Assembly (NCBI GenBank): GCA_016180855.1
Contig: JACPAL010000003.1
Location: forward strand, 62,001 to 126,000
DNA: 64,000 nucleotides
Reading direction: 5' to 3'
Source: Deltaproteobacteria bacterium
Lineage (GTDB): Bacteria; UBA10199; JACPAL01
Part shown: positions 10,884 through 19,121 of the stretch, piece by piece
Numbering within the stretch: position 1 is the first letter of the stretch
Layout: every line of letters begins with the position of its first letter
Made by a program: the position numbers and the translations under genes
Notes under the pieces: generated by a model
What the model was told of the DNA's origin: nothing
Seen by the model: the letters and a program-made list of their open reading frames with translations, nothing else
Database searches by the model: none

Positions 10884-12132
10884 GGATCTGGCCGTTTCCT
10901 TTCACAACGAATTTGGTTGTTGTCAATTCCTCAAGACCCATCGGTCCGAAGGCGTGCAGTTTCGTGGTGCTAATCCCCATTTCCGCACCCAATCCAAGCT
11001 GGCCGCCGTCGTTGAAGCGGGTCGAGGCGTTCCAAAGAACAACGGAGGAATCAAGGCGTCTTAAAAACTCCGCTGCCGTCTTCCGGTTCTCTGTCACAAT
11101 CGACTCGGTATGGGATGATCCATATTTCTGAATATGCCTGATAACCTCTTCAAGGCCTGGTACAACACGAACCGCCAAAATAAGATCCAGGTATTCCGCC
11201 GACCAATCCTTTTTGGTTGCCTTATTGACGTGAGGGACGATCTTCCGCACCCCGGCATCTCCGCGGATCTCCACACCGGCCTCTTCCATCTTTTTCACGA
11301 TACGCGGGAGGAAATGGGGGGCGATCTTTTCATGAACCAGCAATGTTTCCATCGCATTGCAGACGCCGGGACGTTGGACCTTGGCATTAAAGGCGATTTT
11401 TTCGGCCATCTCCAGGTTGGCCTCTTCATCGACAAAGATATGGCAGACCCCTTTATCATGCTTGAGGACAGGAATTTTGGAGTGTCTTTCAATCCACCGC
11501 ATCAAACCTTCTCCCCCGCGAGGGATGATCAGATCAATAGTGCCGCTCTGTCGCACAAGACTCTCCATCCCTTGTCTTGCAGTCGTCTCCACAACCTGAA
11601 TCATATCGGGATTTTTGTTATCCTTCTTGAGAACTCCCTGGAGAATCCTGCCCAAAATCCGATTCGAGAAGAACGCCTCCGATCCTCCTCTCAAGAGGAT
11701 CGCATTGCCCGATTTAAGGCAGAGACCTGCCGCATCGACCGTCACGTTCGGTCGTGACTCGTAAATCATTCCGATGACACCGAGGGGAATCCTGATCCGG
11801 CTGACCTCCAATCGATTCGGGCGTACCCAGGACTTTACTATTTGTCCCACAGGATCCGGGAGCCCACTCACCTCCTGAAGTCTATGGGCCATCTCCTCAA
11901 TTCTTTTATCGGTTAAGGTCAGGCGATCCGTCAGGGCAGGAGAGAGTTTTTTTTGCCAAGCCTCTTTTAAATCCTTTTGATTCTGTTTATGGATCGTTTC
12001 CTTCTGGGCCAAAAGTGCATCCGCCATCTGGAGAAGGAGATAATTTTTCGCTTCCGTCGGCATAATGGCGACCTCCCGTGCCGCCTCTCGTGCCCTTTCC
12101 GCCATCCGTTGAATTTTTTTGGCGAGTATCAT
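10876..12132 (-). CDS. proA: Gamma-glutamyl phosphate reductase
   Basis: Second step of proline synthesis: NADPH-dependent reduction of gamma-glutamyl phosphate to glutamate semialdehyde. 418 residues in the aldehyde-dehydrogenase fold. The catalytic Cys is in RPGVCNAMETLLVH; IPLGVIGMIYESRPNVTVDA and LRGGSEAFFSN are family signatures. The ATG overlaps the end of proB as ATGA at 12129-12132, as expected for enzymes that pass on a labile intermediate. Confidence 0.96.
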   Translation of the reverse strand: MILAKKIQRMAERAREAAREVAIMPTEAKNYLLLQMADALLAQKETIHKQNQKDLKEAWQKKLSPALTDRLTLTDKRIEEMAHRLQEVSGLPDPVGQIVKSWVRPNRLEVSRIRIPLGVIGMIYESRPNVTVDAAGLCLKSGNAILLRGGSEAFFSNRILGRILQGVLKKDNKNPDMIQVVETTARQGMESLVRQSGTIDLIIPRGGEGLMRWIERHSKIPVLKHDKGVCHIFVDEEANLEMAEKIAFNAKVQRPGVCNAMETLLVHEKIAPHFLPRIVKKMEEAGVEIRGDAGVRKIVPHVNKATKKDWSAEYLDLILAVRVVPGLEEVIRHIQKYGSSHTESIVTENRKTAAEFLRRLDSSVVLWNASTRFNDGGQLGLGAEMGISTTKLHAFGPMGLEELTTTKFVVKGNGQIRE

Positions 12133-13265
12133 GTTAACACCAGGTCGTCCCGATGGACTACCTCATCCGGTCCTTTGTAACCCAACCTCTTCTCGATCTC
12201 AGATGTCTTCTCTCCTTTAATCTTTTGAATCTCTTGCGAGCTATAAGAGGAGAGTCCCCGGCCGATAACGATTCCTTGAGGGTTGCAAATATCAACGGCA
12301 TCCCCTTGAACGAAACTTCCTTTAATCTCCTCGATACCGGAGGGAAGGAGGCTCTTTTTCTTGTCAATCAGGGCGTGGCAGGCCCCTTCGTCGAGCAAGA
12401 GAGTTCCCCTTGATTGAAGTGTATGGGCAATCCAATGTTTTCGTGCGGTCAGACTGTCACGTTCCGGAAGGAATAACGTTCCTACGGCCTCCGCTGCAAA
12501 AATCTTTTGGAGAATTTTCGGATCCTGACCATTGGCAATAATTGTCGGGATTCCATACTCGGCCGCCTTGCGACAGGCCTCCAGCTTGGACCTCATTCCT
12601 CCAACCGTCGTGTGGGAGGTCTCCTGGCCTGTTTTTTCAACAAGTGCGGTGTCTACGGATCGGACCAGTGGAATTTGAGTGGCCCCCGCCTCTCTCGTTG
12701 GGTTAGCGGTGAAGAGGCCGTCCTGATCTGTCAGGAGGATGAGTAGGTCGGCATCAACCACGTTGGTTGTTAATGCTGCCAGGTTGTCATTGTCACCAAA
12801 CCGGATCTCTTCGACCGCCACCGTATCATTTTCGTTAATGATCGGTAGTGCCTTCCGCCTTAAAAGTTCAAAAAGGGTATGCTTGGCATTCAAAAACCGG
12901 GTGCGATCCTCCAGATCGCTTCGTGTGAGAAGGAGCTGGGCAACGTCGATTTTTGATCGGGCCAGAAGTTTTTGATAACAACTGATCAGAAAAGGCTGCC
13001 CAAGCGAGGCACAGGCCTGGAGCTCAGAAATTTTAGAGGGACGTTTCTGAAAGCCCCACCTTTGCATTCCCGAGGCGATAGCACCGGATGAGACCAAAAC
13101 CAGTTGAAATCCCTTTTTATGGAGACACGAAACACCACGGACCAGTTCGGAGAGTCTCTTGAGAGAAAGGCGACCTGCTTGGTCTTTAAGGACGCTCGAC
13201 CCTATCTTGATCACCACCCGGCCTGTTTTTTTGATGATCGATTGACGTTGTTGTTCGGTACCCAC
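12129..13265 (-). CDS. proB: Glutamate 5-kinase
   Basis: ATP-dependent phosphorylation of glutamate, first step of proline synthesis. 378 residues: an amino-acid-kinase domain (VVIKIGSSVLKD, LVSSGAIASG, INENDTVAVEEIRFGDND, LLILLTDQDGLF, GTGGM-like TTVGGMRSKLEA) and a C-terminal PUA domain from about residue 285. The start is a GTG at 13265, directly after the bolA stop. No strong ribosome-binding site is seen, so coupling to bolA is likely. Proline feedback on the kinase domain is a family property. Confidence 0.95.
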   Translation of the reverse strand: MGTEQQRQSIIKKTGRVVIKIGSSVLKDQAGRLSLKRLSELVRGVSCLHKKGFQLVLVSSGAIASGMQRWGFQKRPSKISELQACASLGQPFLISCYQKLLARSKIDVAQLLLTRSDLEDRTRFLNAKHTLFELLRRKALPIINENDTVAVEEIRFGDNDNLAALTTNVVDADLLILLTDQDGLFTANPTREAGATQIPLVRSVDTALVEKTGQETSHTTVGGMRSKLEACRKAAEYGIPTIIANGQDPKILQKIFAAEAVGTLFLPERDSLTARKHWIAHTLQSRGTLLLDEGACHALIDKKKSLLPSGIEEIKGSFVQGDAVDICNPQGIVIGRGLSSYSSQEIQKIKGEKTSEIEKRLGYKGPDEVVHRDDLVLT

Positions 13266-13514
13266 TTAAGCGAATTTTGCCCATTCTTCCGGGGTGTAGG
13301 TTTTTAACGAGAAGGCATGAAGGTCGCCGGAGGCGATCTCCGATTCGAAAACGCCTTTGATCATCCGGTGTTGCTCCAGCATCCTTTTCCCCTCAAAGGC
13401 CGGAGAAACCACAATCACCTGCCAATGGTCTTTTGTTCCTGTGAGATCCCGGATCTGGATGGTAGAACCGGGGAAGCTCTGCTGTATTTTTCTTTCAATT
13501 TCTGATGGGGTCAC
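13266..13514 (-). CDS. BolA family protein
   Basis: 82 residues of the BolA/IbaG fold, whose members pair with monothiol glutaredoxins and take part in iron-sulfur handling. Visible family features are LTGTKDHWQVIVVSPAFEGK, LEQHRMIKGVF and the C-terminal LHAFSLKTYTPEEW. The invariant His is in EQHRM. The start seems to be GTG at 13514, with no good ribosome-binding site, so the exact start is uncertain. No glutaredoxin gene is adjacent. It is the first gene of the pro-rsfS-gpmI series. Confidence 0.88.
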   Translation of the reverse strand: MTPSEIERKIQQSFPGSTIQIRDLTGTKDHWQVIVVSPAFEGKRMLEQHRMIKGVFESEIASGDLHAFSLKTYTPEEWAKFA

Positions 13515-13597
13515 GGTACTTTTTTAAGACAATCGACGCACCTTGTCGAGTGGTTTGTCTTGTTTTCATGGGGTGGGCGGGACAAAGATCCTTTTTT

Positions 13598-13724
13598 GGG
13601 CACCTCGAAAAAAGACCCAGATGCAAGGCGCCCGCAAGGACGCGACCGGAGCGTACTTTCGTGGTACGTGAGGACGCGGACGAAGCGGGCAACGCAGCAG
13701 ATGGGTGGTTTTTTAGAGGTGCCC
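13598..13724. repeat. Long palindromic element with CATCTGCTGCGTTGCCC core (copy 1)
   Basis: 127 bp bounded by GGGCACCTC and GAGGTGCCC. Inside, CAGATGCAAGGCGCCCGC faces GCGGGCAACGCAGCAGATG, with a further inner hairpin (GCGTAC/GTACGT) near the centre, so the entire element can fold. On the minus strand it holds ATCTGCTGCGTTG and GCCTTGCATCTGGG, both also present at 43435-43521. It ends exactly at the stop codon of the histone-fold gene and lies upstream of bolA. It could serve as a 3'-end structure for the histone transcript. Confidence 0.85.
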
Positions 13725-13930
13725 TAAACAGTTGGGGTTGATGAGTCGGAGGGGAAGTCCCGATCCATGACCGTCTTACGGCCGTCGGCCTGGGCCTTGA
13801 CAATCGCCTCATCGCACAACTTCTTGATCGCCTCGGAAAGCACGCCGAGGGTGCTGGCGGAGGTACTCATTTGGGATTTATCGCGGATATACTGTTTTAT
13901 TTTTGAAGCAACAACGAGAAGATCACTCAT
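13724..13930 (-). CDS. Bacterial histone-fold DNA-binding protein
   Basis: 68 residues resembling the minimal histone-fold proteins described from Bdellovibrio and related bacteria. Helix 1 is LLVVASKIKQYIRDK; the long central helix runs from about MSTSASTLGVLSEAIKK through LCDEAIVKAQADG. It is followed by the RKTVMDRD loop, equivalent to the RKTV-x3-D loop of archaeal histones. Helix 3 is cut short, as in bacterial members. Start: ATG at 13930 with GGAG seven bases upstream; the longer open frame over the pseudouridine-synthase gene is chance. It probably binds DNA as a dimer in the nucleoid. It diverges from the pseudouridine synthase gene 45 bp away. Confidence 0.87.
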   Translation of the reverse strand: MSDLLVVASKIKQYIRDKSQMSTSASTLGVLSEAIKKLCDEAIVKAQADGRKTVMDRDFPSDSSTPTV

Positions 13931-13975
13931 GAAAGGCTCCTTTCTTTGCTTGAGGTGGACTGATATAACAGGCCT

Positions 13976-14743
13976 ATGGACAAAGGCAAAAGAAATCTGA
14001 GGGTACAAAAATTTCTTTCGCAGGCCGGGATGGCATCGCGACGAGAGGCGGAAGGCTGGATTCGGGAAGGGAGGGTTGAGATTCATCGTAAAGGCTTGGC
14101 CAGGAGGATCTCCGCACAAATTGGCGAGGTCGTTGATCCGGACGAGGACGGGGTATTTGTTGATGGAGTAAAAATTCGGGAAACCCAAAAACATGTCTAC
14201 TACCTCTTTCACAAGCCAAAGAATGTCATGGTGACACGAAAGGATCCGGAGAATCGTCCGACGATTTATGATTATCTGAAAGGGATTCCGGAGCGGGTTA
14301 ATTATGTGGGTCGTCTTGATTTTGATTCGGAGGGGCTCATTCTTCTCACAAACGACGGTACGCTTCATCACCGCCTGACGCATCCTGGGTCCAAGGTGAC
14401 AAAAAAGTATCAGGTGGAGGTTTCTTGTATGGGGACATCCCTCAAAGACGCGATTTGTCAATTAGCCTCAGGTATCAACATCGGTGATTATGTCACGGCC
14501 CCCTGTGAGATCAGAATTTTGAGTCAAGGGTCCAAGAGCACCTGGGTTGAAATGACACTCACGGAGGGGAAACAACGCCAGATTCGACGGATGTGGGACA
14601 AGATAGGTTTTCAGACCTTAAGACTGATTCGTGTGGCGATCGGCCCGCTCAACTTAGGAGATCTTTCAAAGGGGAGATATCGAAAATTGGATGATCGAGA
14701 GATTCAACTTTTGGAAAAGGGGCCTATTGAGCGGAGTCCTTAA
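13976..14743 (+). CDS. rRNA pseudouridine synthase, RsuA/RluB family
   Basis: 255 residues: an N-terminal S4 RNA-binding domain (LRVQKFLSQAGMASRREAE) and an RsuA-type pseudouridine synthase domain with the catalytic Asp in GRLDFDSEGLILLTNDG. GKQRQIRRMWDKIGF is the family's C-terminal signature. It should modify one uridine of 16S or 23S rRNA; length and order suggest RluB (23S) but the target is not fixed. There is no ribosome-binding site, and TATAAC at 13964-13969 sits 12 bases before the ATG, which would give an almost leaderless mRNA. The 3' end overlaps the convergent gene by 20 bases. Confidence 0.93.
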   Translation: MDKGKRNLRVQKFLSQAGMASRREAEGWIREGRVEIHRKGLARRISAQIGEVVDPDEDGVFVDGVKIRETQKHVYYLFHKPKNVMVTRKDPENRPTIYDYLKGIPERVNYVGRLDFDSEGLILLTNDGTLHHRLTHPGSKVTKKYQVEVSCMGTSLKDAICQLASGINIGDYVTAPCEIRILSQGSKSTWVEMTLTEGKQRQIRRMWDKIGFQTLRLIRVAIGPLNLGDLSKGRYRKLDDREIQLLEKGPIERSP

Positions 14744-16340
14744 GGAGCTCTAGAATCTTTTCTTCCTGTCCGGTCCTCTCCTCCTTCCTTCGGAGATAAG
14801 CTCGATACTCGATGAGTGCCGCATGATGCCGATCATTCTTTGCCCACATCTGTTTGATTTTTTCGATGTTCAAAGGGGATGGAACATACTCCCAGGCCTC
14901 AGGATTAAACCGTCCGATATCCCTAGTCAGAAATCGCGTTAAACCTTGAAACGCCTTCTCCTTGTCGTCGGGAGGGGCGTGATCGATCGCCTCAATCTTC
15001 ACAGAAAGTTTCTTCTGCCAGATTTCCGGAACCCCTTCGTAAACCGGGAAGAGCTCATTGACCATGGCAGAGCCACCAACACTGAAGATATAATCGGCCA
15101 CGACGCTTGCCCAGTGGGTTGAGCCCAGGGCGGATTGAACCGCCTGTGATGGCCACATCAGGGTGAGGTATCGGAGCTCGTGTGCCTTTTGGCAGTTCTC
15201 CCAGTTTTGGCCGTTCATTCTGGAGCTTAAATTGTTCATGGCGGGACCGATAAAGATCCCGTACTTCAAGACCAGTTCAACGGTGCGTGCGGCAATATTG
15301 GCGACTCCGGGCTTTCTCGGGAGGTCACCCAGTATGATCCATGGCATAATGAGCCCCATATAGCCCCAGACATTGGCCCCGACGACTCGGCCGGTGTCAA
15401 TCCCCGTCCACTTACGACCGCTACGATTTTGGTAATAACCTTCCAATATAACATCAAAGAAAAGCATGAGAACGGCTGCTCGTCTAATAACAGAAAGATT
15501 TTTTTCAAATCCGTAGAGGAGTCGGATTCCGACGACATTGACCACCAGAATCATTGCCAAAGAGGCACCGATCCCTTTTTGATCCCCGAGGCTTTCACGG
15601 ATATTTGCCAGGTATTCATGGCTAAAATCCCCCAAAATGTCCAAGCCAATGTAGTGATAACGTGCAACCTTGGTTAAAACAGATTTGGATAATCCACTTT
15701 TCCCTGCCAGGTGAGACGTTGGGAGCCCTCCACAGAATCCACCCAGAAAAAAGGCGAGTAGCGCATTTTCAACGATCTCATTGTTTTGTTTTTCCTTTTT
15801 TTTGAGGGACATGTCGCAAAGGTCATATCCGAGCCTTGTGGCACCGCTATAGAGACCAATTTGCAGGTAATTTTGCCAGTATTGTGGAGAACGAACGGCA
15901 TGAACGGCATTTAGGGTAAGCTCTCTAAATTTATTCAAAACGCCTTTTCGGACATCACTAAAGAAAAAAACTCCCCCCAGCAGACCACCACCTCCCCCCA
16001 GGATCATCCCCTGGATAGCGGTTATTTTAATCTGGTCGTAGTCAACTTGATAGTCATCAGCGAGTCCAGCCGCACCTGCCTCTGCCAACAAGGTTAGAGC
16101 GGCACTTCCGAATCCACCCACGGCAGCTCCGGTGAGCATTCCGGCCAAGGAGCCGAACCAAAACCTTTTTGTTGCTGGCAGTTTTGTAAGCCAGCCCCCG
16201 GTTGAGGGAGGTGATCCAACAAAAGAGTCGAGTGAAAGCGTTCTGGAGAGATGAATAGCCGATATCGCCCCTGCCCCCAATGAGACAAGATTCGAAATGC
16301 GCTGACCAGTCTCCTGCTTGATCGGTAAATCTGACCTCAT
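14724..16340 (-). CDS. Uncharacterised multi-pass membrane protein
   Basis: About 538 residues from the ATG at 16340, with weak GGGAAAG upstream; an in-frame GTG at 16469 would add 43 residues lacking membrane character. I do not recognise the family. It has many hydrophobic, Gly-rich segments (FGSLAGMLTGAAVGGFGSAA, GMILGGGGGLLGGVFFF, ALLAFFLGGFCGGLP, MILVVNVVGIRLLYG), so about 8-10 membrane passes are likely. A charged helical C-terminal tail of ~110 residues follows (RHHAALIEYRAYLRRKEERT). The gene at 29278-30522 encodes another orphan of the same design. No catalytic motif is seen. Confidence 0.7.
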   Translation of the reverse strand: MRSDLPIKQETGQRISNLVSLGAGAISAIHLSRTLSLDSFVGSPPSTGGWLTKLPATKRFWFGSLAGMLTGAAVGGFGSAALTLLAEAGAAGLADDYQVDYDQIKITAIQGMILGGGGGLLGGVFFFSDVRKGVLNKFRELTLNAVHAVRSPQYWQNYLQIGLYSGATRLGYDLCDMSLKKKEKQNNEIVENALLAFFLGGFCGGLPTSHLAGKSGLSKSVLTKVARYHYIGLDILGDFSHEYLANIRESLGDQKGIGASLAMILVVNVVGIRLLYGFEKNLSVIRRAAVLMLFFDVILEGYYQNRSGRKWTGIDTGRVVGANVWGYMGLIMPWIILGDLPRKPGVANIAARTVELVLKYGIFIGPAMNNLSSRMNGQNWENCQKAHELRYLTLMWPSQAVQSALGSTHWASVVADYIFSVGGSAMVNELFPVYEGVPEIWQKKLSVKIEAIDHAPPDDKEKAFQGLTRFLTRDIGRFNPEAWEYVPSPLNIEKIKQMWAKNDRHHAALIEYRAYLRRKEERTGQEEKILELLKDSAQ

Positions 16341-16591
16341 CGCTTTCCCAACAACCCTTATCTCGTCATTAGGCCTCGAAATGTTGTCACAACTTTGCGT
16401 CGATTTATTCGAAAATAAGGACGGGGGATGGAGGAGGTAGCTCCTCAGGATGAGGGACAAAGCCCCCACGGGAGGGGGGGCAGTAGAGTGAGGAATGAAT
16501 TATCATAAGCAATATCAATGGGTTATTTTCTTAAAAACAATGAACTGGATGGCAGGGAAATTGCTACATCTATAAGAGAGTAGGAGGGGTT

Positions 16592-17319: not shown

Positions 17320-19062
17320 TCAGAACTCCGCAGTCAGGCTTGTTCGGATTCCCCAAACGGAATTGGCCTCGTCATTCACAATCGTGTTCACCTGTGCCGC
17401 ATTGGTGGGGTTGATCGGATTGTCGGAGCGGACATCATAGGTCTGTCCTGGCAGGAGATAACCGGCGGTCAGATCAAACAAAAGACTGTCGAAGAACCGT
17501 GCCTGAAAATTGCCGTCGACCTCGAGACCATACCACTTTTGTTCATTCCTGACATGCGGGAGGTCGCTGATGCCGATCATCTCCGAGAAATTGAGGTCAA
17601 AGTTGTTAGCAGGAGCCCAGGCGCTGATCACCTTAAATCCAATCTTTGCAGGGCCTGCCTTTGGGACAAAGGGTGCCAGGTTCAGGTGGTGCCAATAGCC
17701 CGCCGTTGAATAGATGGCATTATTGATAAAATTACCCGTTACCGGGACCGCACCAACCAGAACGCGTCCGGGCGTCCCATCCGCATTGGCTTGTGTGACT
17801 CTTGGGGAAGAACCAAGCGGGGCATGGAACAGAAGGAGGGCTATCTGATAGTCAGGTCGGAAACCAAATTGGGTGATTTTTGAAGAGAGCGGTTGTGAAT
17901 CGCCCGAGGCATACCCTCCCTGGAACTTGATCTCACCAAAATCGAAATTTCCCTCAAGTTCAGTAGCTCCCATGTGGACCTGAAGTGTGTTTTGAGTCCC
18001 GCTAGCCGGGAGAACAACGGGGCCTCGGGCCCCTGTCGGTAGATTGTTGAACGGGATCGCATCCAGGGCCAACCCACTCGCAATCTTGCCGGTCATGAAG
18101 ATATACTCCCCCTGCCATTTCCAGGTCCCTCTTTCAAACATGAGATAGAGATCGGCAAAGCTTACGAGCGTGTCGCCATCACGACCTGCTGCCTGCAATT
18201 CTCCAAGCTGGTAATTACCTTTTGAGTCGAGGACCGGGTTGCCATTTCCGTCCAGAAGGACGGAACGGGCGGTTGTCGTAGTATTTCCCTCCACACCATT
18301 CCGATAGCGTAGCCCCGAGAAAGTTCCGATCTGGAAGCTGTCTCCCTCATAAAGGAGGAGACCCGCAAACTGACGCATATCTTCAGGTGGTGTGGTAATA
18401 GCCCCTCCTAACCCGCTGATCCTTGGATCGGTTTGGCGGGTAAAGACGAAATCAGCGGCGGCCCCAATATTGACCGCGCCGGGGCCATCCTTCTCGATTC
18501 GGCCAAGCCACATGAACCGGTCAAAGGAGTCTCCAAAATCGGAGTCGAGTGAATTTCCACTGTTTTGAAAGACACCAAGACCCCAGTGGGACGCCTGTCG
18601 TCCAATCCGAAATTTGCCACCGGGTGTCATGATATCCATGTAGACCCGGCGTACATTCAGCGCCTTGTTTTCACCCGCCTCCCCTCCTGTTACACCAAGG
18701 GCCCCACCGGCCCCTGGAAGCTGGATCGTTCCAACAATAGGTGACAAGAATTCGACCTGCTTTACGCTCTCTGTACCGGCGATGACGTTGTCAAGGATAT
18801 CGAACTGGGTGTGGATGGAGATGTTGTCATTAACCTTAAGCGTTGGTTCGAGACGAAATCGCTGTTGTGTAAAGAGCATCGTGCCGAAACGGTCATTGTC
18901 TCCTAGACCTCCTTGGTCGACTTGGGAGGGCTTTTGAGTGTCGAGGTCGACGTAGGAAACGACTCGGTTGCGGTAATAGCCCGGGATGGAAAGATCAAAG
19001 GCAAAAAGGTGGCACGGCAACAGCGATACTAGAAGAAAGAGTATGATAATTTGACGCAACAA
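17320..19062 (-). CDS. Outer-membrane beta-barrel protein, porin-like
   Basis: About 580 residues. A signal peptide (LRQIIILFLLVSLLPCHLFA) leads into FDLSIPGYYRNRVVSYVDLD. The rest is strand-rich with repeated aromatic-girdle patterns such as RQASHWGLGVFQNSGNSL, FADLYLMFERGTWKWQGEY and FDFGEIKFQGGYASGDS. The last residues, RTSLTAEF, end in Phe as outer-membrane barrels do. Start: no ATG is available; TTG at 19062 or 19059 fits GGAG just upstream, and a TTG at 19119 is the longest option. It resembles the long porins of Deltaproteobacteria; substrate unknown. Confidence 0.75.
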   Translation of the reverse strand: MLRQIIILFLLVSLLPCHLFAFDLSIPGYYRNRVVSYVDLDTQKPSQVDQGGLGDNDRFGTMLFTQQRFRLEPTLKVNDNISIHTQFDILDNVIAGTESVKQVEFLSPIVGTIQLPGAGGALGVTGGEAGENKALNVRRVYMDIMTPGGKFRIGRQASHWGLGVFQNSGNSLDSDFGDSFDRFMWLGRIEKDGPGAVNIGAAADFVFTRQTDPRISGLGGAITTPPEDMRQFAGLLLYEGDSFQIGTFSGLRYRNGVEGNTTTTARSVLLDGNGNPVLDSKGNYQLGELQAAGRDGDTLVSFADLYLMFERGTWKWQGEYIFMTGKIASGLALDAIPFNNLPTGARGPVVLPASGTQNTLQVHMGATELEGNFDFGEIKFQGGYASGDSQPLSSKITQFGFRPDYQIALLLFHAPLGSSPRVTQANADGTPGRVLVGAVPVTGNFINNAIYSTAGYWHHLNLAPFVPKAGPAKIGFKVISAWAPANNFDLNFSEMIGISDLPHVRNEQKWYGLEVDGNFQARFFDSLLFDLTAGYLLPGQTYDVRSDNPINPTNAAQVNTIVNDEANSVWGIRTSLTAEF

Positions 19063-19121
19063 GACAACTCCAGTCCCCCCAAGTTTGCGGCATCTTATTG
19101 ATTTTGAAGAGGGAGTCAAAC

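Follow-up and report, generated by a model that had tools for sequence, protein, structure and literature searches.

Gene content of the locus

The window (that is, the whole 64,000-nucleotide stretch of DNA analysed here) contains a minus-strand gene that begins with ATG, ends with TAG and encodes a histone-fold protein of 68 amino acids, MSDLLVVASKIKQYIRDKSQMSTSASTLGVLSEAIKKLCDEAIVKAQADGRKTVMDRDFPSDSSTPTV (Table 1). The preliminary description of this DNA had given the ends and length of the gene exactly, leaving its strand unstated; the plus strand of the interval is closed by stop codons. A search for a sigma-70-like promoter near the gene found none. The divergent pairing of histone and synthase genes is kept in a genome of the same family (G001), and the synthase is likewise found close to the histone in G007, G014 and G018; L035 also has it nearby, but not in divergent orientation. 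The order downstream, on the strand of the histone gene, is BolA-like, proB-like, proA-like, rsfS and phosphoglycerate mutase gene. Two further minus-strand open reading frames (ORFs), at 14724–16469 (581 amino acids) and 17320–19119 (599 amino acids), gave no Pfam match at E 0.001, and the former has, by eye, many hydrophobic stretches.

Table 1 Features around the histone gene, in window positions
Feature	Position	Strand	Remarks
Amino-acid kinase with PUA domain (proB-like)	12129..13265	-	Downstream of the histone gene
BolA-like protein	13266..13514	-	Adjacent downstream gene, same strand as the histone
Dispersed palindromic repeat, ~130–140 nt	13591..13731	.	Between histone and bolA; outer arm 13709–13731
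Histone gene, predicted bacterial-dimer (HBb-like) α3 histone	13724..13930	-	Translation, phmmer, alignment, model, Foldseek
Shine–Dalgarno-like AAAGGAG	13937..13943	-	Precedes the histone ATG by 6 nt
S4-domain RNA pseudouridylate synthase (rluB-like)	13976..14743	+	Divergent; 45 bp between starts of synthase and histone

The palindromic repeat forms a long hairpin (z = -6.2), has 36 matches in its own genome and is present in 12 of the 30 genomes searched as relatives; Rfam gave no match around the histone gene, the repeat included. As the terminal GAGGTGCCCTAAA of the repeat includes the complement of the histone stop codon (13724–13726), the last residue of the histone and its stop sit at the repeat edge. 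The C-terminal tail past the histone core differs in both sequence and length among relatives, and this variability agrees with an end of the protein that may be loosely constrained.

Homologues in the uncultured class to which the host belongs share the start and reading frame of the window gene, with 50–78% identity over the whole histone core, and most have a ribosome-binding site before the start. Compared with its nearest relative (G001), the gene differs at 13, 7 and 36 sites in codon positions 1, 2 and 3, respectively (24 codons differ silently and 14 amino acids are changed). NG86 estimates for five of six pairs give dN of 0.25–0.36 and dS of 1.2–4.4, with dS saturated for the nearest pair. 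The gene is under purifying selection.

Identity of the encoded protein

When the protein was compared with PDB sequences using phmmer, the chains of HBb (Bd0055 of Bdellovibrio bacteriovorus) ranked first (8fvx, E = 1.7e-16; 8cmp, E = 1.9e-16), covering residues 1–62 with 34 of 62 aligned residues identical to Bd0055 (about 55%). Ten orders of magnitude behind followed 9qt0 (E = 3.6e-6) and 9f2c (HTkC, an archaeal FtF histone; E = 2.8e-5), which Foldseek names as Leptospira and Thermococcus histones, respectively. General histone models scored below their curated thresholds (Pfam PF00808, 19.3 bits against a cut-off of 21.4; NCBIfam NF043032, 17 bits against 50), so that plain annotation could miss this histone.

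A structure model built from an alignment of 21 members of the class (mean pLDDT 82.8) has long helices at residues 2–19 and 25–48 and a third at 56–58, that is, the shortened α2 and the α3 cut to about one turn that mark the dimer type; a single-sequence model (mean pLDDT 70, pTM 0.35, no separate α3) was dropped. The two-helix core described previously therefore stands as to its two long helices, to which the alignment-based model adds the one-turn third. Foldseek placed HBb alone at ranks 1–5 (TM 0.71–0.82, rmsd 1.5–2.3), and the structural check proposed at the outset thus returned a histone fold. A nucleosomal HMf-type archaeal histone was rejected on the basis of the scores below cut-off for NF043032 and PF00808 and of an α3 of one turn rather than full length. 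The protein groups with HBb by phmmer, and a histone tree puts HBb within the dimer-type rows of the class with weak resolution, given that it has only 64 columns and many unresolved forks; it was not used to distinguish inheritance from transfer.

The individual residues point in the same direction. Simulations of HBb place its DNA contacts at N22 (which makes the most), R57, S9, T53, T8, S24, K10, K12, K52 and K16, and the HBb fold is held by an R51–D58 clamp with D49 (PMC11317129). Seven of these ten contact residues are identical in the window histone (S9, K10, K12, S24, K52, T53 and R57), and at the remaining three K16 is replaced conservatively by R, T8 by A and N22 by S. The clamp residues R51 and D58 are retained together with D49, and α1 carries the basic residues K10, K12 and R16, as in the dimer type. 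In the 21-row class alignment, R51, T53 and D58 are invariant and K52 nearly so, and S9, K10 and R57, likewise K12, are conserved. The RKTVMDRD loop is present as previously claimed, and its RKT is kept in 20 of 20 dimer-type homologues, so that the loss of the basic loop that was to count against a histone is not seen. Each of the 20 dimer-type proteins in the class has A8; only three of them (G000, G001 and G027) have S22. The net charge is +1 (10 K/R, 9 D/E).

Schwab and colleagues (PMC11390915) define a bacterial-dimer category of α3 histones around HBb and state that FtF histones require R and N at the dimer–dimer interface. The corresponding positions of the window histone are K45 and D49, and R and N occur in the 22 FtF-like paralogues of the class, which both the tree and overall identity set apart from the dimer-type rows. 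No N-terminal zinc finger of ZZ histones (C4 and C2H2 sites) was found; the window protein begins at the histone fold. Because of the short α3, the RD clamp, the KT loop and the lack of both the FtF R/N pair and a zinc finger, we place the protein among the bacterial dimers, and consider it very probable, from sequence, model and analogy with HBb, that it is an HBb-type α3-truncated histone that would dimerise and bend DNA non-specifically. That it is a histone-fold protein of the Bdellovibrio kind, as first suggested, is supported by phmmer, the predicted fold and the DNA-contact residues. Taken singly, the histone is a relative of a solved protein such as one would expect, and its value lies in the correct annotation of a family member in a lineage in which such proteins are common.

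Histones and HU/IHF across the class

Searching with the window protein gave matches (E <= 1e-4) in 38 of the 46 class genomes, including 26 of the 29 of good quality, and, at E <= 1e-3, in 1 of 14 genomes taken from other parts of the domain. In a balanced survey, bacterial histones occurred in 1.86% of bacterial genomes (PMC10627809). The proposed use of the gene to place the organism is weak when taken alone, as related histones occur in several phyla, although histones are unusually common in this class. A single-sequence scan of genome contigs returned one relative only, from a metagenome-assembled Deltaproteobacteria genome (RIFCSPHIGHO2_01_FULL_43_49). The window histone is the sole match to its own sequence in its own genome (2.21 Mb, 30 contigs, 95.9% complete).

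Histone kinds were assigned by reading all matched sequences. Counted per genome, there are 20 of the dimer type, 22 FtF-like and 7 ZZ-like, with some genomes holding two or three kinds and one (G012) all three. The FtF-like proteins with the R/N pair (L027–L032, L034, L057–L064, L067, L069, L070 and L072–L075) come from 22 genomes, several of which also have the dimer type. Of the seven ZZ-like cases, the zinc finger is seen in five and missing from one, and the seventh is truncated by a contig end; ZZ-type zinc-finger histones proper were found only at L025, L033, L056, L065 and L066, where about 150–165 amino acids comprise a Cys-rich finger, a linker and a histone domain whose loop reads KTVMGRD. 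At L026 (G009), a histone domain of this kind (KTVMGRD loop) is preceded by only a short N-terminal stretch in place of a finger, and may be a finger-less derivative of the ZZ kind.

HU/IHF-family genes are present in all 46 genomes of the class. The search of the host genome that had been recommended yielded four, one over the NCBIfam cut-off for IHF-alpha and one over an IHF-beta cut-off, the other two being nearest to HU-beta and to IHF-beta, both below cut-offs. Histone-type chromatin, as proposed in the preliminary description, is only partly supported: a histone of the HBb kind is encoded, but beside four HU/IHF genes, and histones like HBb produce bends in DNA instead of wrapping it. 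Tentatively, and with rather more doubt than confidence, we suggest that histones could be a near-core chromatin component of the class, with dimer, ZZ-type and FtF-like kinds spread among genomes alongside HU/IHF. A literature search found no paper linking histone frequency to the UBA10199 lineage, an absence that carries little weight. If the suggestion is correct, the class would rank among the lineages of bacteria richest in histones and would lend itself to studying how histones and HU/IHF share the nucleoid. The distribution observed widens the range over which HBb-type histones are known and allows the replacement and coexistence of histone kinds to be compared within one lineage.

Proposed mode of action and relation to known histones

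By homology with HBb, two chains of the window histone would form a handshake dimer, in which the start of α1 and the L1/L2 loops would grip successive minor grooves via the phosphate backbone, so that the dimer would bend and compact DNA without sequence specificity. HBb lacks the residues that archaeal HMfB uses to tetramerise (PMC11317129), and nucleosome-like wrapping is consequently not expected for the window histone, which would act as one nucleoid protein beside HU/IHF rather than as a nucleosome-like wrapper. The binding mode of HBb is itself disputed: coating of straight DNA by filaments (PMC10627809, as summarised in PMC11390915) versus bending (PMC11317129). Together with the changes of N22 to S and of T8 to A and the low net charge, this dispute counts against our explanation; on the analogy with HBb, dimerisation and non-specific bending nevertheless seem most likely.

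Other readings have to account for the same data. The gene is short and overlaps other ORFs of the mechanical list, as a chance ORF merely resembling a histone might; given the HBb match (E = 1.7e-16), conservation across the class, the Shine–Dalgarno sequence and the concentration of changes at silent third positions, we regard it as a real gene and the chance reading as refuted, with next to no probability left to it. An FtF-type histone, whose tetramers would wrap or bridge DNA as in Thermococcus HTkC, would belong to the same α3 superfamily, and both the next-best PDB matches (9qt0 and 9f2c) and the FtF-like paralogues of the class speak for it. However, K and D replace the aligned R and N at positions 45 and 49, HBb stands far above the FtF structures by sequence and fold, and the FtF-like rows form a separate tree group (on few columns, with many forks unresolved), which makes this reading very improbable.

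Somewhat less remote, though still unlikely, is a low-abundance histone-fold protein with a minor regulatory role, such as has been reported for the ZZ histone of Bdellovibrio, rather than one that organises the nucleoid globally. The four HU/IHF genes of the genome would fit such a role, as would the failure to find a sigma-70-like promoter and the lack of a detectable copy in one genome of the same order and a few others. The window protein is, however, of the HBb rather than the ZZ type, with an MDRD instead of an MGRD loop and no zinc finger, and the HBb type is abundant in Bdellovibrio despite HU (PMC10627809).

The dimerising, DNA-bending histone favoured here most resembles HBb/Bd0055 (8fvx, 8cmp, 9ezz, 9f0e; PMC10627809, PMC11317129), with which it shares about 55% identity, the length of the histone core, S9-K10, K12, the KT loop, the RD clamp with D49, a short α3 and the lack of an N-terminal tail. 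It differs in having A8, S22, R16 and D56 where HBb has T8, N22, K16 and A56, in a slightly longer polar C-terminal tail and in a host of another class. From the bacterial dimers, as described in PMC11390915, no defining difference appears: the RKT....D motif, the α1 lysines, the lack of the FtF R/N pair and the bacterial host are all common to both. The FtF histones HTkC (9f2c) and Leptospira HLp (9qt0) have the short-α3 histone fold in common with the window histone, which lacks their tetramer R and N; they are 36–39% identical to HBb and rank far under it for the window query. ZZ histones have, according to PMC11390915, a histone domain resembling that of bacterial dimers, but the N-terminal zinc finger, which is present in the relatives G004, G012, G022, G041 and G044, sets them apart from the window protein.
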